Of a stretch of 64,000 bases of DNA, positions 2 to 12,949 are shown piece after piece. The notes below the pieces were generated by a model that saw nothing but the letters and a program-made list of their open reading frames with translations, searched no databases and was not told where the DNA came from. Origin of the DNA: Clostridiales bacterium (GTDB taxonomy: Bacteria > Bacillota > Clostridia > Lachnospirales > Bianqueaceae); assembly GCA_024689505.1 (NCBI GenBank), contig JAILDJ010000271.1:1-64000 (forward strand), in the 5' to 3' direction. A program made the translations under genes and the position numbers. Each line of letters opens with the position of its first letter. Positions within the stretch are counted from its first letter, which is position 1.

Positions 2-721
2 GTCAGAAAAGTGCTGTTCAGCGGGGAAGTGATGCCTGAAAAGCATTTGCGGCAGTGGATGGAAAAACTTCCGGAAGCGGAGTTCGTCAACCTGTACGGC
101 CCGACAGAGATCACCTGCAACTGCACGTATCATCGTATCGATCGTACCCGGGAATATCAGGGGACGATTCCTATCGGACGGGCTTTCCCGAATGAGGAAG
201 TGTTCCTCCTGGAGGGCAGCAAAAAGGTAGAAGAGCCGGGACAGACCGGAGAGATCTGTGTCAGCGGCACGGCTTTGGCGCTGGGATACTATAATGCTCC
301 GGAGCAGACGAAAAAGGCTTTCGTGCAGAATCCGCTGCAGGATCGCTATCCGGAGATCATATACCGTACAGGAGACCTGGCCTGCTATAATGAAGACGGG
401 GAACTGGTCTTCAAAGGACGGAAGGATTTTCAGATCAAATATCAGGGCCATCGAATCGAATTGGAAGAGATCGAACGGGCTATGATGCAGTTGGAAGAAG
501 TGCGCAGAGCGGTTTGTGTTTTTGATGAACAAAAGGGCCGGCTGTTTGGATTCTATACGGGTGACATAGAAGGAAGCATACTTGTCGAAGCGCTCGGCAG
601 GACCCTGGCGGTCTGGCAGATCCCGAAACTGAAACAAGTCGAGGATATGCCGTTGACGAAAAACGGTAAAGTCGACCGCAAACTGCTGCTTGCGAGCGTT
701 CAACGGAGGCCACGCAAATGA
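2..721 (+). CDS. Amino-acid adenylation (AMP-binding, DltA/NRPS A-domain-like) enzyme, C-terminal part; 5' end is outside the window
   Basis: Open frame from the window edge. Motifs KVLFSGEVMP, NLYGPTE, YRTGDLA, GRKDFQIKYQGHRIELEEIE and PLTKNGKVDRKLL (A10 lysine) are typical of DltA/NRPS adenylation domains. Confidence 0.9.
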   Translation, partial: VRKVLFSGEVMPEKHLRQWMEKLPEAEFVNLYGPTEITCNCTYHRIDRTREYQGTIPIGRAFPNEEVFLLEGSKKVEEPGQTGEICVSGTALALGYYNAPEQTKKAFVQNPLQDRYPEIIYRTGDLACYNEDGELVFKGRKDFQIKYQGHRIELEEIERAMMQLEEVRRAVCVFDEQKGRLFGFYTGDIEGSILVEALGRTLAVWQIPKLKQVEDMPLTKNGKVDRKLLLASVQRRPRK

Positions 722-1857
722 TCGATCGAGTGCAACGATATGGTACGCCGTTATATTACTTCGACGGAGAGATCCTACGGGACCGCATCTGCTTTTTACG
801 AAAGCATATACCGGAGGCGACAGACCTTTGCTATGCGGTCAAGGCCAATCCGTTTCTGATCAAGGAAGCAGCGCCTTATGTGGACCGTCTGGAGGTCTGT
901 TCTCCCGGAGAGGCCAGGATCTGTTTTGATCAACAGGTGCCGGAGGAGAAGATGGTCATTTCCGGAGTCTATAAGGATCCGGATTTCATGCAGGAACTGG
1001 TGCAGCAGCACCCTTTGATCGGCTGGTATACAGTCGAGTCTATGTCACAGTATCAGTTACTGACACAACTTGCCAGGACCTATGGGCGGAAACTCAAATT
1101 GCTGCCCCGTTTGTCCTCCGGAATGCAGTTTGGGATGGACGAGAAGGAGATCACCGGGATCCTGGAAGCGCCGGACCCGGAGGTCGAAATCTGTGGGCTG
1201 CAATTCTTTTCGGGGACGCAGAAAACATCCTTGAAGAAAATGCGGCGTGAGATGGAGAAGAGCAGCCGGCTGGTGCGTGCGTTTGGCCTTCAGGAACTCG
1301 AATTCGGCACAGGCTTTCCTGTCTTTTACTTCGCGGACGAGACCTTCGATGAAGAAGCATATCTGCAAGGTTTTCGAGCATTGCTGGAGGAGTATGCGGA
1401 AGGTCTTACCGTGACACTGGAGCTGGGGAGAAGCATCACGGCTTCCTGCGGTACGTATTATACGACCGTCGTAGATACCAAGCAGATCGGTTCGGAAAAG
1501 TTTGCCATCGTGGATGGCGGCATCCATCAGATCGCCTATTATGGGCAATTCATGGCAATGAAACTGCCATGTATGCGGCTTTTGCCGGAGCGGAAGGCCG
1601 ATGCGGAGCCATGGAATATCTGTGGCAGCCTTTGCACCGTTAATGATATTTTGGTCAAGGAGTGGCCTACGGCACCACTGTCACAGGGGGACGTACTGGC
1701 ATTTGAAAAGGCTGGTGCGTATTGTGTGACAGAAGGGATCGCGCTGTTTTTGAGCCGGGATCTGCCGGCGGTCGTTTTGAAAAGCGCACAGGATGGAAAA
1801 GAACACCTGCTGCGTGCACATGTTGAAACAAATACTTTGAATGAAGGGGAGTACTGA
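718..1857 (+). CDS. PLP-dependent decarboxylase, Orn/DAP/Arg decarboxylase family 2 (fold type III)
   Basis: YAVKANP (PLP lysine), GTGFPV, ELGRSI, CGSLCTVNDIL (catalytic Cys region) and FEKAGAYC motifs. Overlaps the upstream stop by 4 nt. Confidence 0.88.
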   Translation: MIDRVQRYGTPLYYFDGEILRDRICFLRKHIPEATDLCYAVKANPFLIKEAAPYVDRLEVCSPGEARICFDQQVPEEKMVISGVYKDPDFMQELVQQHPLIGWYTVESMSQYQLLTQLARTYGRKLKLLPRLSSGMQFGMDEKEITGILEAPDPEVEICGLQFFSGTQKTSLKKMRREMEKSSRLVRAFGLQELEFGTGFPVFYFADETFDEEAYLQGFRALLEEYAEGLTVTLELGRSITASCGTYYTTVVDTKQIGSEKFAIVDGGIHQIAYYGQFMAMKLPCMRLLPERKADAEPWNICGSLCTVNDILVKEWPTAPLSQGDVLAFEKAGAYCVTEGIALFLSRDLPAVVLKSAQDGKEHLLRAHVETNTLNEGEY

Positions 1858-1860
1858 GCT

Positions 1861-2091
1861 ATGGAAACATTATTGGATATTTTGCAGGAGATCGCGCCGA
1901 CCGTGGATTTTGAAAACTGCACCACGCTGATCGACGATCACAAATTGGATTCTTTGGCGATCCTGTCTTTGATCGCGGAATTAGAGGATGAATTTGATAT
2001 CACGATCCCTACGGTGGAGATCGTGCCGGCGAATTTCAATTCTGCTGAGGCGATGTGGGCCATGATCGAGCGCCTGCAGGCGGAGGATTAA
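1861..2091 (+). CDS. Acyl/peptidyl carrier protein
   Basis: 76 aa; LDSLAILSLIAELEDEF matches the phosphopantetheine attachment motif (DSL). Sits between the decarboxylase and MBOAT genes. Confidence 0.88.
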   Translation: METLLDILQEIAPTVDFENCTTLIDDHKLDSLAILSLIAELEDEFDITIPTVEIVPANFNSAEAMWAMIERLQAED

Positions 2092-3672
2092 GTGAAATCA
2101 TACCTCTCGTTTTCGTATCTTCTCGTCCTGCTGCCGTTGGCGCTGTTATGCTATCAGATCATGCCCCAGCGCATCCGCCGATACGTGCTGCTTTTGATGA
2201 ACCTGTGTTTCATCTTTTATTTCAGCCGTAAAGGCAGTGTGTTTATCGTACTGTCTACGCTCAGTATCTATGGCGCAGGCCTTTGGATCGAAAAGCTTTC
2301 GCAACAGCAGAAGGAAGCCGCTGCAGGACTGGAACGAAGTGCACGCAAAACATTGAAACTGCGGTATGCAAAGAAGCAGCGCGGGGTCCTTGCCCTGGCG
2401 GTCGTATTCAATATCGGGATCCTTTTGGTACTCAAATACGCAGGCTTCTTCATGACCAACGTATATGCGGTGCTAGGCAAAAGTGATGGGACCATTCCCA
2501 GATTTATGCTGCCCATCGGATTGTCATTCTATACGATGTCCGCAGTCTCTTACGTCACAGATGTGTATCGCGGGCAGATCGAGGCGGATCATGATCTGGT
2601 GCGTCTCGCGCTGTTCTTGAGCTTCTTTCCAACGATCATGGAAGGTCCGATCTGTCGGTATTCTGACACGGCTGTCTCGATCAATGAAGCACGCCGGATC
2701 CGATATGAGGATCTGACCTGCGGTGCCCAGCGCATTGTCTGGGGACTGGCGAAGAAATTGATCGTTGCTGATCGTTTGAACAACCTCATCAAGACGGTGT
2801 TCCTGCATTACATTCGATATGATGGAACGGTCATGGCACTGGCGGCTGTACTATATACGATCCAACTGTATATGGAGTTTTCCGGAACGATCGACGCGGT
2901 CATTGGGACCGGGGAGATCTTTGGAGTGCGGATCCCGGAGAATTTCCGTCAACCGTTTTTTTCGGTTTCCATCTCTGATTTCTGGGCACGTTGGCATATC
3001 ACGTTGGGCACATGGTTCCGTGATTATATTTATTATCCGGTCTCGATGTCTGGGCCACTGAAAAAACTGACCATGAAGTCACGCAAGAAGCTGGGTAATT
3101 ACTATGGCCCTATGCTTTCTGGGTTGATCGCACTGTTCGCCGTGTGGCTGGCCAATGGACTGTGGCATGGCAGCGCCTGGAGTTTCATTTTCTTCGGCAT
3201 GTATCACTTTACACTGCTGATGATCGGAAGGATCTGTGAGCCGGGAATCGTTCGCCTGCTGCAGTGGCTGCACATCGATAGGGAGAGTAAGGCGTACCGT
3301 GCGTTCCGCATCGTGCGAACAGCGCTGTTGGTCATGATCGGTGAGCTTTTCTTCCGTGCGCATGGCCTGAGGGCAGGCCTTGCCATGTTTGGTCGTTTAT
3401 GTACCGGCTTCCAGGTGCGCACACTTTTTGATGGTACATTGCTCACTCTAGGCATGGACGCCAAAGATTATGTGATCATCGGGCTGTTCTTGCTCCTGGT
3501 CCTGTGGGTCAGCATGCAGCATGAAAAAGGTGTGTCTCTGCGGGATCAGATCGCAGCTCGTCCGGTTGCACTGCGTTGGTCGCTGTATTATGTTCTGTTA
3601 TTGGCTGTTGTCATTTTTGGCGCTTACGGCCCGGGCTATGTCGGGATCGATCCGATCTACGCCGGGTTTTAG
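2092..3672 (+). CDS. MBOAT family O-acyltransferase (DltB/AlgI-like)
   Basis: 526 aa polytopic; LPIGLSFYTMSAVSYVTDVYRG, FWARWHITLGTWFRDYIYYP and WLANGLWHGSAWSFIFFGMYH signatures. GTG start abuts the upstream stop. Confidence 0.92.
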   Translation: MKSYLSFSYLLVLLPLALLCYQIMPQRIRRYVLLLMNLCFIFYFSRKGSVFIVLSTLSIYGAGLWIEKLSQQQKEAAAGLERSARKTLKLRYAKKQRGVLALAVVFNIGILLVLKYAGFFMTNVYAVLGKSDGTIPRFMLPIGLSFYTMSAVSYVTDVYRGQIEADHDLVRLALFLSFFPTIMEGPICRYSDTAVSINEARRIRYEDLTCGAQRIVWGLAKKLIVADRLNNLIKTVFLHYIRYDGTVMALAAVLYTIQLYMEFSGTIDAVIGTGEIFGVRIPENFRQPFFSVSISDFWARWHITLGTWFRDYIYYPVSMSGPLKKLTMKSRKKLGNYYGPMLSGLIALFAVWLANGLWHGSAWSFIFFGMYHFTLLMIGRICEPGIVRLLQWLHIDRESKAYRAFRIVRTALLVMIGELFFRAHGLRAGLAMFGRLCTGFQVRTLFDGTLLTLGMDAKDYVIIGLFLLLVLWVSMQHEKGVSLRDQIAARPVALRWSLYYVLLLAVVIFGAYGPGYVGIDPIYAGF

Positions 3673-3681
3673 GAGGCTGCT

Positions 3682-4644
3682 ATGAATATGACGATCAAGC
3701 ATATGGTAAGAGCCAGTCTCTTTATCCTGATATTTGTCTTGCTGATGGTAGGCCTGTCGTTCGTATTCCGGCCAAAGAACAACAGCCGTGACGAGGGCAT
3801 GGATTTTGCAGAAGCCAATGGAATCCTGGGTGAACCGGAGAATACCATCGATGTTCTATATATCGGCGATAGCGAAGTCTACAATGGGATCTCGCCTTTG
3901 GAGATCTGGAACAACAGAGGTATTACCGGCTATGACTGTGCGACCGGTGCACAGCAGATCCTGAGCAGCTGGAATTTCGTGGAGCAAGCCTTTGAAACCC
4001 AAAAGCCCCGGGTCGTGGTCATAGAAACGACGGTCTTGTTCCGCAAGTTCGGGGCAGAGAAGTGGTTCGAAGAGCAATTACGCTATCATTTTCCAATGTT
4101 CCGTTTTCATGACCGTTGGAAATATCTGAAGGCAAACGATCTCAAGTTTTCTTATCAGACCACCTGGAGCGATCCTTTGAAAGGATTTCGTTTATTCAAG
4201 AAAGTTTCAGGATTTGAACCGGATGAAGAGTATCGCAAGCCAACGGAAAAAAAGGTTAAAATGAACCGCTTCTCCAGATTGTATCTGCAGAAGATGCAAG
4301 CGTTGTGTGATACACATGGTGCGCAGCTCGTCCTGCTCTCACTGCCAACGACCAAAAACTGGAATTTCGGCCGACATAACAGTATCCAACATTATGCTGA
4401 GGAGCATGGACTGGTCTACCTGGATATGAACCTGCTGCCTGAATCTGAATTCAGCATTGACTGGATGAAAGATACCAAGGACAAGGGAGATCACCTGAAT
4501 TACACAGGAGCCGTCAAGGCCAGTGGATACTTGGCGACCTATCTGGCAGAATCATTTGGCCTGGAGGACCATCGCTCCGATCCCAGGTATGAGCATTGGG
4601 ATGCGTATTGGAAAACCTATCTGACTTTAGTCGATGAGAATTAA
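3682..4644 (+). CDS. SGNH/DltD-AlgJ-like surface acyl-transfer protein
   Basis: N-terminal TM segment, YIGDSEVYNGI (GDS block) and DKGDHLNYTGA (Asp-x-His block). Follows the MBOAT gene. Confidence 0.8.
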   Translation: MNMTIKHMVRASLFILIFVLLMVGLSFVFRPKNNSRDEGMDFAEANGILGEPENTIDVLYIGDSEVYNGISPLEIWNNRGITGYDCATGAQQILSSWNFVEQAFETQKPRVVVIETTVLFRKFGAEKWFEEQLRYHFPMFRFHDRWKYLKANDLKFSYQTTWSDPLKGFRLFKKVSGFEPDEEYRKPTEKKVKMNRFSRLYLQKMQALCDTHGAQLVLLSLPTTKNWNFGRHNSIQHYAEEHGLVYLDMNLLPESEFSIDWMKDTKDKGDHLNYTGAVKASGYLATYLAESFGLEDHRSDPRYEHWDAYWKTYLTLVDEN

Positions 4645-4656
4645 TACAATAAAAGA

Positions 4657-4697
4657 GACCCTCGATCGCCTGTGATGGCTTTCGAGGGTCGTTGTTT
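4657..4697 (+). terminator. Intrinsic terminator at the end of the dlt-like operon, between convergent genes
   Basis: gaccctcgat...(t)ttcgagggtc inverted repeat followed by gttgttttt. Confidence 0.7.
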
Positions 4698-7212: not shown

Positions 7213-7665
7213 ATGCCGCTTTTGATTTTATTGTTATGGGTCGTTCTGAACGGTAAGATCACTTTGGAGATCCTATTGTTTGGAGTTGCCATCACGGTAT
7301 TGATCACGATCTTCGCCTATCGTGTGATCGGATATTCGGTGATGCATGATCTGCGTGTGATCCGCAACCTTCCGATCCTTCTGTTATATATCTTGAATCT
7401 GATCTATGAGATCCTGAAAGCGGCGTTCAAGGTCACGAGCATGGTGTATCAAGCAGATGAGCCAGATCCGGTCATTGTGGAGTTCCATTCCGGATTCAAA
7501 AACCGCCTGCAGAACGTTCTGTTGGCCAATTCCATCACTTTGACACCGGGCACCATCACCGTTTTCCTGGAGGAGGATCATTTTGTTGTTCATGCAGTGC
7601 GTCGTGAATATGCAGAGGGCATTGAGTCATCTTCTTTCATAAAGCTGCTGCGTAAAATGAAGTAA
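7213..7665 (+). CDS. Na+/H+ antiporter subunit E (MrpE/MnhE; MbhA-like)
   Basis: ILNLIYEILKAAFKV and ANSITLTPGTITVFLEEDHFVVHAV are typical of MnhE. Confidence 0.92.
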   Translation: MPLLILLLWVVLNGKITLEILLFGVAITVLITIFAYRVIGYSVMHDLRVIRNLPILLLYILNLIYEILKAAFKVTSMVYQADEPDPVIVEFHSGFKNRLQNVLLANSITLTPGTITVFLEEDHFVVHAVRREYAEGIESSSFIKLLRKMK

Positions 7666-7675
7666 GGAAAGACAT

Positions 7676-8032
7676 ATGGATATACAGACAGCGTATCAGT
7701 ACTTGTACGGAGGAGCTTTGATCTGGCTTGCCATATTGGGCGGTATGATGCTGATCCGGTCGATCATCGGTCCCAGGATCACAGACCGTATCCTTGCGAT
7801 CAATATGATCGGGACAATGGTCATCTGCAGCATAGCGATCCTGTCACGGCGGTTAGGGGAAAGCTATTTGGTGGATGTAGCGTTGATCTATGCTATGGTC
7901 AGTTTCATTTCTGTTCTGATCCTGGCGATGATCTATATCCCAGTCATGAAGAAGCGCGGCCGGTTTGAAAAGGAAGTCCGGGAAGAAGTGCAGGCGGAAA
8001 GAGAATTGTTGCAGGAGGAGGAATCAAAATGA
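7676..8032 (+). CDS. Monovalent cation/H+ antiporter complex subunit F (MrpF/MnhF; MbhB-like)
   Basis: RSIIGPRITDRILAINMIGTMVICSIAILS...YLVDVALIYAMVSFISVL. Confidence 0.9.
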   Translation: MDIQTAYQYLYGGALIWLAILGGMMLIRSIIGPRITDRILAINMIGTMVICSIAILSRRLGESYLVDVALIYAMVSFISVLILAMIYIPVMKKRGRFEKEVREEVQAERELLQEEESK

Positions 8033-8367
8033 GCGGTGAATGGATCCGTTTTGCAGTGACGGCAGCGTTACTGTTCGTTGCGATGGTCTCTTTTTCTGCG
8101 GCTGTGATCGGTGCCTATCGGTTTGGGTTTGTTTTGAATCGGATCCATGCCGCCGGTATTGGAGATACAGCGGGCGTATTCTTTGTGATCTTATCACTTC
8201 TGATTTCTGCGGGTTCGGGTCTGGACACGGTGAAACTGATATTGATCGTATTGTTTTTGTGGTTTACATCTCCAGCTTCCTCACACTTCGTGAGTCAGGT
8301 GGAGTATTATACGAATCCACATCTGTTCCGGTATGTGGATCGTCAGATGAAAGAACCGGAGGATTGA
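8029..8367 (+). CDS. Monovalent cation/H+ antiporter subunit G (MrpG/MnhG; MbhC-like)
   Basis: RFGFVLNRIHAAGIGDTAGVFFVILSLLI and FTSPASSHFVSQ motifs; ATGA overlap with the upstream gene. Confidence 0.9.
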   Translation: MSGEWIRFAVTAALLFVAMVSFSAAVIGAYRFGFVLNRIHAAGIGDTAGVFFVILSLLISAGSGLDTVKLILIVLFLWFTSPASSHFVSQVEYYTNPHLFRYVDRQMKEPED

Positions 8368-8368
8368 T

Positions 8369-8653
8369 ATGGAACTGACAGTTATTTTACGAACGATCCT
8401 GCTTCTGGTGCTGATCGTATGCGCGATCGCAGTCAACCTTTCCAAAAGCCTGCTGCAATCGGTGATCATTTTCATGTCGTACAGTTCCATCATGTGCCTT
8501 TTATGGATCCTTATGGAATCTCCGGATCTGGCGATCACGGAAGCAGCGGTCGGTGCTGGTATCAGCGGGACTTTGTTCTTGATGACACTGAAGAAACTGC
8601 GGGCTGAGGACCGTCGGGACGATATGGAAGGGGAAGAAGGGCAGACTTCATGA
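8369..8653 (+). CDS. DUF4040 / MbhD-like (MrpA C-terminal segment) subunit
   Basis: ESPDLAITEAAVGAGISGTLFLMTLKKL, the DUF4040 hallmark. Confidence 0.88.
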   Translation: MELTVILRTILLLVLIVCAIAVNLSKSLLQSVIIFMSYSSIMCLLWILMESPDLAITEAAVGAGISGTLFLMTLKKLRAEDRRDDMEGEEGQTS

Positions 8654-9603
8654 GTCGATTCAAAGACAGATTCACGCGGTGGCTGAATGGTGAGTCAGAT
8701 GTCATGAATTACGTCATGGACAGTACGCGAACACCGTATCTTTCCCGTGAATCTATAAAAGAACAAACCGCTGCGAAACGGCAAGAGTTTGCCGGTCGGT
8801 CCAGGACCAAGGACGTGGTGCGTGCAGAGACCAAGGGATTCTATGCATTGTATAACGTGGTGGCTATCATCAGCTGCATCGCTTTGATCGGGGTTCTGTT
8901 GTTTACAGTAGCGAACCTTCCGGAATATGGCCAGGAAAACCCCCGTACGGTCGAAGTGGTCAGCCGGTATGTGGAGAACGGCCTGGAGGAAACAGGCGCC
9001 GTCAATATCGTCGCGGGTATGATTCTGGATTATCGTGCCTTTGATACGCTTGGTGAGTCGCACGTCCTGTTTACAGCGCTGATCTGCGTGCTGATCTTGC
9101 TGCGCATCGATGCGAAAAACATGCGTATCGATTATGAGGATTATTATACGATCCGAGAGGACGCGTATTTTGACGTATCCGGTGACGCGATCATGCGCGG
9201 CGTTGGACTGGTGATCCTGCCCAGCGTTTTCCTGTTTGGCATCTATATTCTGTTGAACGGTCAGAATGGGCCGGGCGGTGGTTTTTCAGGCGGTGCGATC
9301 ATCGGTGCCGGATTGATCCTGTATTCGACAGCCTATGGCTTTGCTGCCGTGGATCGTTTCTATACACTGAAGCTATCAATTGCGATCACTTTTATTTCAT
9401 TGACCTTTTACAGCTTTGCGAAAGGATATGTATTTTTCACAGGAGCGAACGGACTTGAGAACGGGATCCCTAAGGGGATCCCCGGAGCGATCCTGTCCGG
9501 CGGACTGATCCTGCCATTGGATATCGCTGTCGGACTGGTGGTGGCATGTACGATGTACGGGTTTTACAGTTTGTTTAAGAGAGGAAGTATCGGCGGTGCT
9601 TGA
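8650..9603 (+). CDS. Fused MbhE-like + MnhB/MbhF-like antiporter subunit
   Basis: GAVNIVAGMILDYRAFDTLGESHVLFTAL (MbhE-like), then LNGQNGPGGGFSGGAIIGAGLIL (MnhB). Confidence 0.85.
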   Translation: MSRFKDRFTRWLNGESDVMNYVMDSTRTPYLSRESIKEQTAAKRQEFAGRSRTKDVVRAETKGFYALYNVVAIISCIALIGVLLFTVANLPEYGQENPRTVEVVSRYVENGLEETGAVNIVAGMILDYRAFDTLGESHVLFTALICVLILLRIDAKNMRIDYEDYYTIREDAYFDVSGDAIMRGVGLVILPSVFLFGIYILLNGQNGPGGGFSGGAIIGAGLILYSTAYGFAAVDRFYTLKLSIAITFISLTFYSFAKGYVFFTGANGLENGIPKGIPGAILSGGLILPLDIAVGLVVACTMYGFYSLFKRGSIGGA

Positions 9604-9976
9604 GAATTTATTGATCAATAACGAAGAAGCGGCGGCGGTCATCCTTTTTGGCATAGGATTTACCATGCTGCTGTTTCAGAAAAACCTGATCAAGAAATTG
9701 ATCGGGATGAATATCATGGATACGGGTGTCTTCCTGTTTTTGGCTTCCATGGGCTATATCAGCGGAAGGAAAGCACCGATCATCGTGGATGGCATACAAA
9801 CGACGGAAGCGTACATCAATCCGATCCCGGCAGGTCTGGTCCTGACGGGCATCGTGGTCTCGGTGTCGGTCACAGCCGTGATGCTTTCACTGACGATCCG
9901 ACTGTATAAGCGCTATCATACGTTGGAGTTGGACGAGATCTATGTGCTTTCCAAACACCAGATGGAGGATCGATAA
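9596..9976 (+). CDS. NuoK-like antiporter subunit (MrpC/MnhC; MbhG-like)
   Basis: 126 aa; LFGIGFTMLLFQKNLIKKLIGMNIMDTGVFLFL...NPIPAGLVLTGIVVSVSVTAVMLSLTIRLYKRY. GTG start overlaps the upstream gene. Confidence 0.88.
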   Translation: MLENLLINNEEAAAVILFGIGFTMLLFQKNLIKKLIGMNIMDTGVFLFLASMGYISGRKAPIIVDGIQTTEAYINPIPAGLVLTGIVVSVSVTAVMLSLTIRLYKRYHTLELDEIYVLSKHQMEDR

Positions 9977-11485
9977 GTGGATTTTATAACCAATTTTCCG
10001 CTGTTCAGCATCGTGCTGAGTCTGTTCTCCGGAGCCTTGTGTTTTACGCTTAGAGGGCATGGACGGGCGGCCAAGATCTACACGGTATGCGTTGAGAGCG
10101 TGTTGATCGCTCTTAACCTTTGTGTCCTGATCTATACGCTGAAAACGGGTACTTCTTTCACTTATACCATGGGTGAATTTCCCGCGCCTTGGGGCAATGA
10201 GATCCGCGCAGGTGTGCTGGAAGCCTTTTTGGCCGTATCTTTTGTAGGCATTCTTTTATGTTCGGTCCTGGCAGGGTACCGCTTTGTGCGGATCGACATG
10301 GACGCGGAAAAGATCAATCTGTATTATGCATTGATCAATCTGCTGACCGCGGCATTGATGGCCCTGATCTGGACGAATGATATTTTTACAGGGTATGTGT
10401 TCCTGGAGATCATGACGCTGACCAGCTGCGGCATCCTGATCGTTCGAGAGATCGGTCGTACCACGTTGGCGGCTGTCCGATATATGATCATGAATCTGCT
10501 GGGTTCCGGTCTGTTTCTGCTTGGCGTCGTTCTGTTATATGATCTGACGGGTCATCTGCTGATGGTGCCCATGCAGGAAGCGATCCGAGAGCTATCGGTT
10601 GATACAAAAGTCATTCCGGTTCTCACGATGTCAGTCGTGATCCTGACGATCGGACTCTCGATCAAAAGCGGTTTGTTTCCCTTCCATTTCTGGATGCCGG
10701 ATACCTATGGCTGGGCAACTCCGACATCGGCATCGATCCTTTCATCTTTAGTCTCCAAGGCATATATCTTCCTGTTGATCAAGATCTACTACCGGGCGGT
10801 CGGGTTCTGGGTCATTGAACAGATGCCGATCCAGGGTGTACTGATGGTGTTGGGGATCTGCGGGATCGTGATCGGTTCCTTCCAGGCGATCCGCGCGAAT
10901 ACGATCAATAGTATGGTGGCCTTTTCTTCAGCAGCACAGATCGGGTATATCTACATGGGCATCGGCCTGGGTGGAGAAGCGGGATACACAGCAGCAATTT
11001 TCCATATGCTGGCGCACGCAGTCACCAAATCCCTGCTGTTTCTGACAACGCCGCGCCTAGCAGCAGTATCCGGCGAAAGCCTGATATTCAAACGTCTGCA
11101 AGGAAGCGGCCTGCGCGACCGCATGGCGGGTGTCGCGTTTTTGATATCTTCATTCTCCATGATCGGCATTCCGATCTTCGCCGGCTTCTCATCCAAAATC
11201 CAGTTTGGACTGGCGGCGGTCAGCACCCGATCGGATGGCATCGTGATTTCCGTTATGTTGGCATTGGCGCTCAGTTCAGCTTTGAACGCGGTATACTTCA
11301 TCCGAACGATCATTCGTATCTACAGTACACGAGACGGCGCGGAGACAGAAGAGGATACCGGAAGATCCAGGGATCTTTCATTTGTCGGACCTATGCTGGC
11401 TTTGACACTTGGCAATTTGTTTCTAGGCTTGTTTTCCTGGATCGCAGTAGGATGGATCCAGACAGGCCTTTCGATGTTTTCCTGA
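9977..11485 (+). CDS. Complex-I antiporter-like subunit 1 (MrpD/NuoN-M-like)
   Basis: FLEIMTLTSCGILIV, SIKSGLFPFHFWMPDTY and IGIPIFAGFSSK motifs; about 14 TM segments. Confidence 0.88.
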   Translation: MDFITNFPLFSIVLSLFSGALCFTLRGHGRAAKIYTVCVESVLIALNLCVLIYTLKTGTSFTYTMGEFPAPWGNEIRAGVLEAFLAVSFVGILLCSVLAGYRFVRIDMDAEKINLYYALINLLTAALMALIWTNDIFTGYVFLEIMTLTSCGILIVREIGRTTLAAVRYMIMNLLGSGLFLLGVVLLYDLTGHLLMVPMQEAIRELSVDTKVIPVLTMSVVILTIGLSIKSGLFPFHFWMPDTYGWATPTSASILSSLVSKAYIFLLIKIYYRAVGFWVIEQMPIQGVLMVLGICGIVIGSFQAIRANTINSMVAFSSAAQIGYIYMGIGLGGEAGYTAAIFHMLAHAVTKSLLFLTTPRLAAVSGESLIFKRLQGSGLRDRMAGVAFLISSFSMIGIPIFAGFSSKIQFGLAAVSTRSDGIVISVMLALALSSALNAVYFIRTIIRIYSTRDGAETEEDTGRSRDLSFVGPMLALTLGNLFLGLFSWIAVGWIQTGLSMFS

Positions 11486-11500
11486 AAGAGGTGATAGATC

Positions 11501-12949
11501 ATGCTGTATGTACTCGCATTCCTGTTTCCGGCAGCGGCAGGCGTTCTGTCTGCAACACTTCCGGTACACAACGATCGGACAAGAAAAGCTCTTTATATAG
11601 GCACACTGTTTTTGTCGGATCTTTTCGCGGTATTGGCCATGCTGCGAGGCGGAACGTTTACACTCTGTACACTTTCGGAAAACGTCCGTCTGTCCTTTGC
11701 ATTAGATGGTTTTGGCCGTTTGTGTCAGGCCGTCGTACTGTTCATGTATACCGTCATTTGCTTCTATGCGTTCGAGTATATGAAGAAAGAGGAGCACCCG
11801 GACCGGTTCTTCGCGTTCTATTTCGTATCTATGGGTGCGATGAATGCGGTATGCATGGCGCAGAACCTGGTCAGCCTGTATTTCTGCTTTGAACTGGCGA
11901 CACTTTCGACTTTGCCGCTGGTCCTGCATGAACTGAGCCGTGACGCGATCGCCGCTGGTTTGAAATACTTGTTCTATTCCATCGGCGGAGCGCTGCTTGG
12001 CTTGTTCGCGATCTTCTTCGTATATGAATATACGAATGGAGCGCCAGCGTTCGTGCTGGGCGGGTGTCTGGACCGGACAGCCCTGGAAGGACACGAAGGG
12101 ATCTTCCTGGCAGCCGTATTCGCAGGCATCGTAGGCTTTGGTACAAAGGCCGGTATGTATCCGATGCATGGCTGGCTTCCGGCGGCACATCCGATCGCGC
12201 CGGCGCCTGCGTCTTCACTGCTTTCCGGTATCATTGCGAAGGCCGGGATCATTGCTGTGATCCGTCTGGTGTATTATTCAACGGGCACAGAGATCCTGGC
12301 AGGGACCTGGGTCCAGACGACGTGGATGATCCTTGCGCTCATCACCATCTTTATGGGCTCTATGATGGCGTACCGAGAGAAGATCGTAAAGAAACGCCTG
12401 GCATATTCGACGGTCAGCCAGATCTCGTATATCATGCTGGCACTTTCCTTCCTGTCGGTACAGGGACTGAAAGGCGGCCTGCTGCACTTGATGGCGCATG
12501 CGTCCGCTAAAGGATGCTTGTTCCTCGTCGCCGGTGTGTTCATTTACAAATGGGATCTGCGGCAGGTTGGCGACCTGAAAGGCATCGGGCAGAAAATGCC
12601 CGTGACCATGTGGTGCTTTATGATATCGGCACTATCGCTGGTGGGTATCCCCCCGATGGGCGGATTCGTCAGCAAATGGGTGATCGCGGAAACGGCTGTT
12701 GGCAGCGGCCTTGCGGTATTCCGATTCTTAGCACCGGCAGTACTATTGTTATCTGCGTTGTTGACTGCAGGCTACTTGTTCCCGATCGCGATCGATGGAT
12801 TCTTCCCAGGACATGAAGAGAGCAGTGTGCCGGCGGAGAAGGATGAGCCCACTGCTTGGATGGTAGTGCCCATGATCCTGCTTTGCGCAGCAGGTCTTTG
12901 CGTGGGTCTGTTCGGACAGCCCTTGGTCAGTGGAATCTTTGGTTTGTAA
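11501..12949 (+). CDS. Complex-I antiporter-like subunit 2 (MrpD/NuoM-like)
   Basis: FGTKAGMYPMHGWLPAAHPIAPAPASSLLSGIIAKAGI and VGIPPMGGFVSK. Confidence 0.9.
   Translation: MLYVLAFLFPAAAGVLSATLPVHNDRTRKALYIGTLFLSDLFAVLAMLRGGTFTLCTLSENVRLSFALDGFGRLCQAVVLFMYTVICFYAFEYMKKEEHPDRFFAFYFVSMGAMNAVCMAQNLVSLYFCFELATLSTLPLVLHELSRDAIAAGLKYLFYSIGGALLGLFAIFFVYEYTNGAPAFVLGGCLDRTALEGHEGIFLAAVFAGIVGFGTKAGMYPMHGWLPAAHPIAPAPASSLLSGIIAKAGIIAVIRLVYYSTGTEILAGTWVQTTWMILALITIFMGSMMAYREKIVKKRLAYSTVSQISYIMLALSFLSVQGLKGGLLHLMAHASAKGCLFLVAGVFIYKWDLRQVGDLKGIGQKMPVTMWCFMISALSLVGIPPMGGFVSKWVIAETAVGSGLAVFRFLAPAVLLLSALLTAGYLFPIAIDGFFPGHEESSVPAEKDEPTAWMVVPMILLCAAGLCVGLFGQPLVSGIFGL

Follow-up and report, generated by a model that had tools for sequence, protein, structure and literature searches.

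A dlt-like operon with an embedded fold-III decarboxylase: a candidate envelope-acylation system of gut Clostridia and Coriobacteriia

Introduction

What might an amino-acid decarboxylase be doing in the middle of an operon that otherwise looks like dlt, the operon of D-alanylation? The question is raised by positions 2-4644 of the window, by which the whole 64,000-nucleotide stretch analysed is meant (contig C246, GenBank JAILDJ010000271.1, bases 1 to 64,000, of the Clostridiales bacterium assembly GCA_024689505.1). Here a DltA-like amino-acid adenylation enzyme (A), a fold-III decarboxylase dependent on pyridoxal phosphate (PLP; the enzyme is abbreviated DC), a carrier protein (ACP), a membrane-bound O-acyltransferase (MBOAT) and an SGNH acyltransferase-like protein are encoded in this order on the forward strand, neighbouring genes either overlapping or lying less than 10 bases apart. 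A first-pass annotation, made from the sequence alone, had described this tightly coupled five-gene run, a description borne out for every gene in both position and strand, and had proposed that it might decorate the envelope with carrier-derived 4-aminobutyrate (GABA) or beta-alanine. On a narrow balance of probability, the operon would indeed be an envelope-acylation system on Dlt logic, in which the carrier receives an acidic amino acid by way of the side chain, the bound residue is decarboxylated there and the MBOAT/SGNH pair transfers the product, the substrate and the acceptor being what we infer.

Identity of the decarboxylase

The decarboxylase gene (718..1857, 379 aa; PF02784 and PF00278 above their cut-offs) overlaps the reading frame of the adenylation enzyme by 4 bases. 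Its catalytic motifs are kept, just as had been noticed at first pass, with the PLP lysine K42 standing in YAVKANP and C306 in CGSLC, and K42, C306, D310 and Y335 are retained across 116 aligned decarboxylases. The plainest explanation of such a gene would be that it is the LysA of housekeeping lysine biosynthesis, which merely chances to sit in a dlt-like operon, and its membership of the LysA superfamily (TIGR01048, 137.9 bits) could be cited to that effect; that score, however, is far under the cut-off of 297.9, whereas a separate LysA on contig C81 of the same assembly exceeds it with 412 bits (a further LysA-like gene on C80, at 290 bits, stays slightly below). In a tree of 43 rows, the cassette decarboxylases form a single clade (100/100) and the six LysA rows another (100/99), so that the decarboxylase neither groups with LysA nor is the sole lysA of its genome. 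The Arg of the LysA motif RPxxY, which binds the far end of diaminopimelate (DAP), and the DAP-binding Glu of its motif CES are replaced by Tyr274 and Thr/Ser307 in 116/116 decarboxylases, Thr307 being common to BtrK, SbnH and the exosortase type PEP1. With the gene order conserved besides (see below), a housekeeping role is left with a negligible probability, and the decarboxylase is, by its sequence relationships, distinct from housekeeping LysA. The model of the exosortase A-associated decarboxylase (TIGR03099) is not reached either (141 vs. 478 bits).

The closest solved relative by both profile and fold is BtrK, which decarboxylates a glutamyl residue held on a carrier protein in butirosin biosynthesis: a decarboxylase profile searched against the PDB places it on top (222 bits, followed by SbnH with 195 and the best LysA with 190), and the fold search returns it first (E 3.3e-29) with LysA folds close behind, while a single-sequence search, unlike the profile one, ranked some LysA first. 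In the tree, where reference rows are few, BtrK does not group with the operon's enzyme but sits opposite, with PEP1 and LysA, and the placement of SbnH is unsure owing to long branches. The BtrK precedent invoked at first pass thus stands as the closest solved match, though it is neither the sole precedent nor the closest one in gene logic, where VinN/VinL/VinO and the FlvN pathway, which likewise employ an adenylation enzyme, come nearer.

Conservation of the five-gene order

A scan of public genomes yielded more than 560 relatives, and gene order was surveyed at the best 80 loci together with the window (n = 81). At 63 of the 81 the genes stand exactly as A-DC-ACP-MBOAT-SGNH, the remaining loci being mostly contig edges or rearrangements, and with so many loci identical in their five-gene order, chance falls far short of explaining the arrangement. 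The survey of linkage proposed at first pass has thereby come out in favour of co-conservation, which extends over Clostridia, Erysipelotrichia and Coriobacteriia; the carriers belong to Oscillospiraceae, Lachnospiraceae, Eubacteriaceae and Erysipelotrichaceae and, within Actinomycetota, to Coriobacteriia, relatives of Ruminococcus bromii, Collinsella and Agathobaculum among them. Within the window's order, the decarboxylase is found at E < 1e-40 in 47 of 392 genomes, and at most of the loci opened there A, DC and ACP are adjacent, MBOAT and SGNH being present as well at about two thirds. Widely shared flanking genes were sought around these order-level loci and none were found, the surroundings being varied, and an Rfam scan of ten loci for an upstream riboswitch that might betray the substrate returned nothing at the operons.

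Some individual loci deserve a mention in their own right. An OLE RNA (RF01071, 281 bits) lies at L145:6459-7051, a short distance upstream of a cassette locus. At two loci (L087, L095), one A-DC-ACP core is flanked by two MBOAT-SGNH pairs, which may mean two acceptors. Distant relatives of DC and A without MBOAT/SGNH occur in natural-product-like clusters (L036:4700-7564, L052, L053), whose neighbours read as UvrA-like and NAD-synthase-like.

The adenylation enzyme and its pocket

The adenylation gene is truncated by the contig start (window base 1), so that only the C-terminal 239 aa are seen (2..721; AMP-binding Pfam 68 bits). The missing part was sought on the other contigs of the source assembly and not found, although a second adenylation enzyme surfaced on C166; the complete protein was therefore represented by the 509-aa homologue from a congeneric genome (G011, L055:3785-5314), to which the window's enzyme is 82% identical over the shared part. 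The window's portion gives a partial TIGR01733 match and stays below the cut-offs of the DltA models, and the full-length homologue does not reach them either (TIGR01734, 286 vs. 560 bits; PRK04813, 294 vs. 476). The specificity residues called for at first pass could be extracted from 117 adenylation proteins mapped by hand onto GrsA numbering, even though the upstream half of the window's own enzyme was not recovered.

The pocket is near-invariant, reading D233 D235 V236 K239 W279 S301 C330 N331 (D235 in 110, V236 in 106, K239 in 108, S301 in 114 and N331 in 107 of the 117), with a basic residue at position 239 in 115. Seven proteins, subgroup 2, read D233 I235 A236 R239 S301 S331 instead, having lost D235, the usual alpha-amino anchor, while keeping D233 and the basic 239. 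In VinN, bulkier residues occupy the 236 and 301 positions (S299 is cited), and A236V became fixed in TycA evolved for beta-Phe (PMC11253843). The same trait, bulk at these two positions alongside a retained D235, is found here at the frequencies just given, and V236 with S301 suggests a resemblance to beta-amino-acid adenylation domains.

A different pocket characterises relatives at loci of the A-ACP-MBOAT type that have no decarboxylase (L195, L205, L206, L207, L209, L210, L211, L212), namely Y233 D235 [SAL]236 K239 with V/G330 and D/M331, which (e.g., as D235 S236 K239 D278 ... V330 D331) resembles a Glu code. The DC-type pocket (DDVK) occurs in genomes bearing the decarboxylase in 21/21 cases and the other type in 1/9 (Fisher 1.5e-6), counts that reflect few evolutionary events, not thirty, because the two pocket types and subgroup 2 each form one clade. 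This association ties the decarboxylase to whatever the adenylation enzyme is predicted to load. Two DC-type adenylation genes lack an adjacent decarboxylase (on C166 of the source assembly and in G168), and both genomes have one elsewhere. The microcystin and ACV synthetase codes for iso-linked acidic residues may likewise carry a basic 239, which serves as a lead only.

The transfer route

The three remaining genes would provide the way out of the cell. The carrier (1861..2091, 76 aa; PF00550 29 bits) has its phosphopantetheine serine, Ser31, conserved in 112/112 members and does not reach the DltC model (31.7 vs. 68 bits), and the MBOAT protein (2092..3672, 526 aa; PF03062 54 bits), whose GTG start directly abuts the carrier's stop, does not reach that of DltB (160 vs. 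375 bits); Pfam cut-offs, on the other hand, are passed by A (AMP-binding), DC (Orn/DAP/Arg decarboxylase), ACP (PP-binding) and MBOAT. H302, H359 and the C-terminal Tyr523 of the last are present in all 102 aligned proteins, the Tyr lying within PIYAGF (3652..3669), the window's version, with P for the first F, of the FxYxxF motif that every MBOAT C-terminus listed carries in some variant. In PatA, the Tyr of this motif accepts the acyl group and hands it over to an SGNH partner, whereas in Dlt the motif is carried by DltX, and other MBOAT-SGNH pathways do without a carrier protein (PMC12148441). The operon joins a carrier protein with an MBOAT-fused shuttle motif, and its four complete genes leave no room (gaps below 10 bases) for a separate DltX microprotein, the region upstream of A lying beyond the contig.

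The SGNH protein (3682..4644, 320 aa) has no relevant Pfam match and, as weak GDSL matches were obtained for just 7 of 27 members, a structure model was built. The AlphaFold model (predicted local distance difference test, pLDDT, 94.6) consists of an N-terminal membrane helix and an SGNH fold, for which Foldseek returns GDSL/SGNH enzymes, PatB and DltD among them, and the putative catalytic residues Ser64 and His271 are found in 103 and 104 of 106 members, respectively. A search for DltD proper (PF04914) across the window's own genome gave no match. The features of PatAB-type pairs, that is, a catalytic His and shuttle Tyr on the MBOAT and a Ser and His on the SGNH partner, are all present, and the genes are predicted to cover every stage of acyl transfer as far as an extracellular polymer.

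The operon ends in a strong hairpin of terminator type with a T-rich tail behind it (4657..4695, forward strand; minimum free energy -25.7 kcal/mol, z -5.1), equalled in stability by none of 200 shuffles. The next gene 3' of it, on the opposite strand, reads as an AsnA-like asparagine synthetase, and further downstream (window 7213-12949) the translated reading frames form a gene run for an Mrp/Mnh-type multisubunit cation antiporter, unrelated to the operon.

Proposed mechanism and acceptor

Put together, these parts would work as follows. The adenylation enzyme would activate an acidic alpha-amino acid as the adenylate of its side-chain carboxylate and load it onto the phosphopantetheine of the carrier, whereupon the decarboxylase would strip the still-free alpha-carboxylate of the bound residue, leaving an omega-aminoacyl-S-ACP; a fold-III decarboxylase requires a free alpha-amino-acid end and therefore, if the substrate is carrier-bound, the activated carboxylate has to be another one. 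The MBOAT protein would then carry the acyl group through the membrane to its own C-terminal Tyr (the motif is observed, the reaction is suggested by PatA and DltX), from which Ser64 of the SGNH protein would accept it and esterify a hydroxyl of an extracellular polymer, the ester bringing in positive charge in the manner of the D-alanine of Dlt. Should this scheme hold, aspartate yielding a beta-alanyl group is the favoured substrate, with a fair preponderance of probability, and glutamate yielding a 4-aminobutyryl group comes second, as the clearly less probable choice; the preference is due to the tendency of 4-aminobutyryl esters and thioesters to cyclise to pyrrolidone and to the acceptance of Asp or methyl-Asp by VinN-type enzymes, neither of which is proof.

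As to the acceptor, contig C166 of the source assembly (L176:283-12304) encodes LicD, an AT3 acyltransferase, SGNH and MBOAT proteins, an LtaS-like sulfatase-family protein (725 aa) and an adenylation enzyme with a pocket code identical to the operon type, with no decarboxylase, a related ACP following 12 kb further on (L182:5445-5675); the contig may be foreign, because the contamination of the assembly is estimated at 5.7%. A nucleotidyltransferase-aminotransferase fusion and an ornithine-cyclodeaminase-like gene are found on C166, too. The subgroup-2 locus L044 lies among surface-polysaccharide genes (cytidylyltransferase, glycosyltransferase, YfhO), and L039 and L054 read likewise. The neighbours of relatives thus suggest envelope polymers as the acceptor and single out no one polymer; an LTA-like (lipoteichoic acid-like) polymer is the probable acceptor, with a surface polysaccharide probably taking its place in some relatives.

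Discussion

Counted in favour of side-chain loading followed by on-carrier decarboxylation and transfer to the envelope are the order shared by 63 of 81 loci, the nearness of BtrK, the lost LysA residues, the near-invariant pocket and its covariation with the decarboxylase, the V236 and S301 reminiscent of beta-amino-acid domains, the A-DC-ACP core kept at most order-level loci in differing surroundings, the shuttle motif, the loss of D235 in 7 of 117 pockets and the VinN/VinL/VinO and FlvN precedent, and, for the acceptor, the LtaS-like gene beside an adenylation enzyme of the same code, MBOAT and SGNH on C166 and the polysaccharide neighbours of subgroup 2. Several points weigh against it. 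The substrate is inferred from sequence, and the acceptor from the neighbours of relatives, no polymer gene adjoining the operon in the window. The association of pocket code and decarboxylase rests on some three clades, so that its P value overstates independence; K239 is found in decarboxylase-free relatives as well and is therefore by itself no sign of side-chain loading; and the beta13-beta14 loop, which is one residue shorter in VinN, does not look shortened here as read from the sequence against LgrA. Several A-DC-ACP loci lack an adjacent MBOAT/SGNH pair, and the adenylation enzyme on C166, identical in its pocket, has no adjacent decarboxylase, which would have to act in trans there, or the residue could be used uncut.

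The main rival reverses the order of events: the decarboxylase would make a free omega-amino acid (e.g., beta-alanine from Asp) and the adenylation enzyme would activate the product. IdnL3, which decarboxylates free beta-glutamate before IdnL1 loads 3-aminobutyrate (PMC11284099), is a precedent, and the V236/S301 pocket would suit a plain beta-amino acid too; the basic 239 of 115/117 pockets, however, suggests an acidic group on the substrate (though decarboxylase-free relatives share it), and the nearest relatives of the decarboxylase, BtrK and SbnH, use derivatised amino acids according to their PDB titles, and we regard this rival as unlikely. More doubtful still is a route by which meso-DAP would be loaded via one alpha-carboxylate and decarboxylated at its other end on the carrier, resulting in a lysyl group and lysylation of the envelope. 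The decarboxylase does belong to the LysA superfamily, the loss of the distal Arg/Glu of LysA would be expected were that end a thioester, and a lysine ester would likewise add positive charge, but the nearest relative is BtrK and not LysA, a separate LysA should supply free lysine with no need for such a decarboxylase, and subgroup 2 lacks D235, the canonical anchor of the alpha-amino group.

Equally improbable, in our estimate, is a secreted or free metabolite (a natural product) as the product of the operon instead of a polymer decoration: VinO and BtrK do serve antibiotics, and MBOAT/SGNH are absent from some of the A-DC-ACP or DC/A loci, a few of these being the natural-product-like ones mentioned above, yet at 62 of the 80 loci retrieved MBOAT and SGNH follow in fixed order, the shuttle motif is known from polymer acylation, and the cassette has no condensation or polyketide genes. 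Of the first-pass proposal as a whole, the separation from LysA, the nearness of BtrK and the conserved linkage hold up, the pocket is seen to co-vary with the decarboxylase and the transfer route is encoded, while GABA or beta-alanine would be the probable group attached.

Among known systems, Dlt shares the adenylation enzyme, carrier, MBOAT and SGNH components, with A and MBOAT detectably similar to DltA and DltB and an SGNH protein that folds like DltD, among others; it differs in having no embedded decarboxylase, in its pocket, in a DltD (PF04914) that the operon's SGNH protein is not, and in having its shuttle motif on DltX instead of MBOAT, all operon members being below the curated Dlt cut-offs. 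The butirosin set BtrI/BtrJ/BtrK offers the best decarboxylase match, but its product goes to an aminoglycoside, its carrier is loaded by an ATP-grasp ligase and the operon's decarboxylase clade is distinct. The exosortase A-associated ligase, decarboxylase and ACP (TIGR03098, TIGR03099) embody the same three-protein idea near glycan genes, a Sinorhizobium (S. meliloti) member adjoining an ACP and glycosyltransferases, whereas no MBOAT/SGNH pair is annotated in the S. meliloti stretch examined and the operon's decarboxylase is far under the cut-off. In the VinN/VinL/VinO set of vicenistatin and the FlvN pathway of fluvirucin B2, a standalone adenylation enzyme, an ACP and a PLP decarboxylase act on a loaded acidic amino acid (PMC11284099), a likeness by description; unlike the operon, these supply a polyketide starter, need VinM and VinK, and have no MBOAT/SGNH. 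Peptidoglycan O-acetylation by PatA/PatB combines a separate SGNH protein with an MBOAT whose C-terminus bears the FxYxxF Tyr itself (PMC12148441), but it draws on acetyl-CoA and has no carrier protein, adenylation enzyme or decarboxylase. Canonical DltD is rare in the window's order (5/392 genomes, one of them overlapping with the decarboxylase set), and from a possible anti-correlation of the two no conclusion is drawn, DltD being too rare and the phylum sample too sparse.

Searches of the open literature, which took in no preprints and left aside most of what is published by subscription, yielded no prior description of the operon. The parts are known; for the union of A-DC-ACP with an MBOAT-SGNH pair directed at a polymer, these open papers offer no account, and priority is not claimed. 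Only tentatively would we propose that beta-alanyl (or 4-aminobutyryl) esters, formed by on-carrier decarboxylation of an acidic amino acid and delivered by a self-acylating MBOAT and an SGNH protein to surface polysaccharides or LTA-like polymers, constitute an undescribed class of decoration in common gut Clostridia and Coriobacteriia, for the most part in genomes that lack canonical DltD. If true, on-carrier decarboxylation, familiar from antibiotic biosynthesis, and the acylation of polymers by MBOAT-SGNH pairs would meet in one operon, having been known as separate pathways only, and the surfaces of commensal cells would be expected to bear a new amine ester that hydrolysate analysis could look for. 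Widespread gut bacteria would then own a surface-charge system that annotation would take for a defective dlt operon accompanied by a stray lysA, and whose esters, by analogy with D-alanylation, should influence resistance to cationic peptides and recognition by the host.

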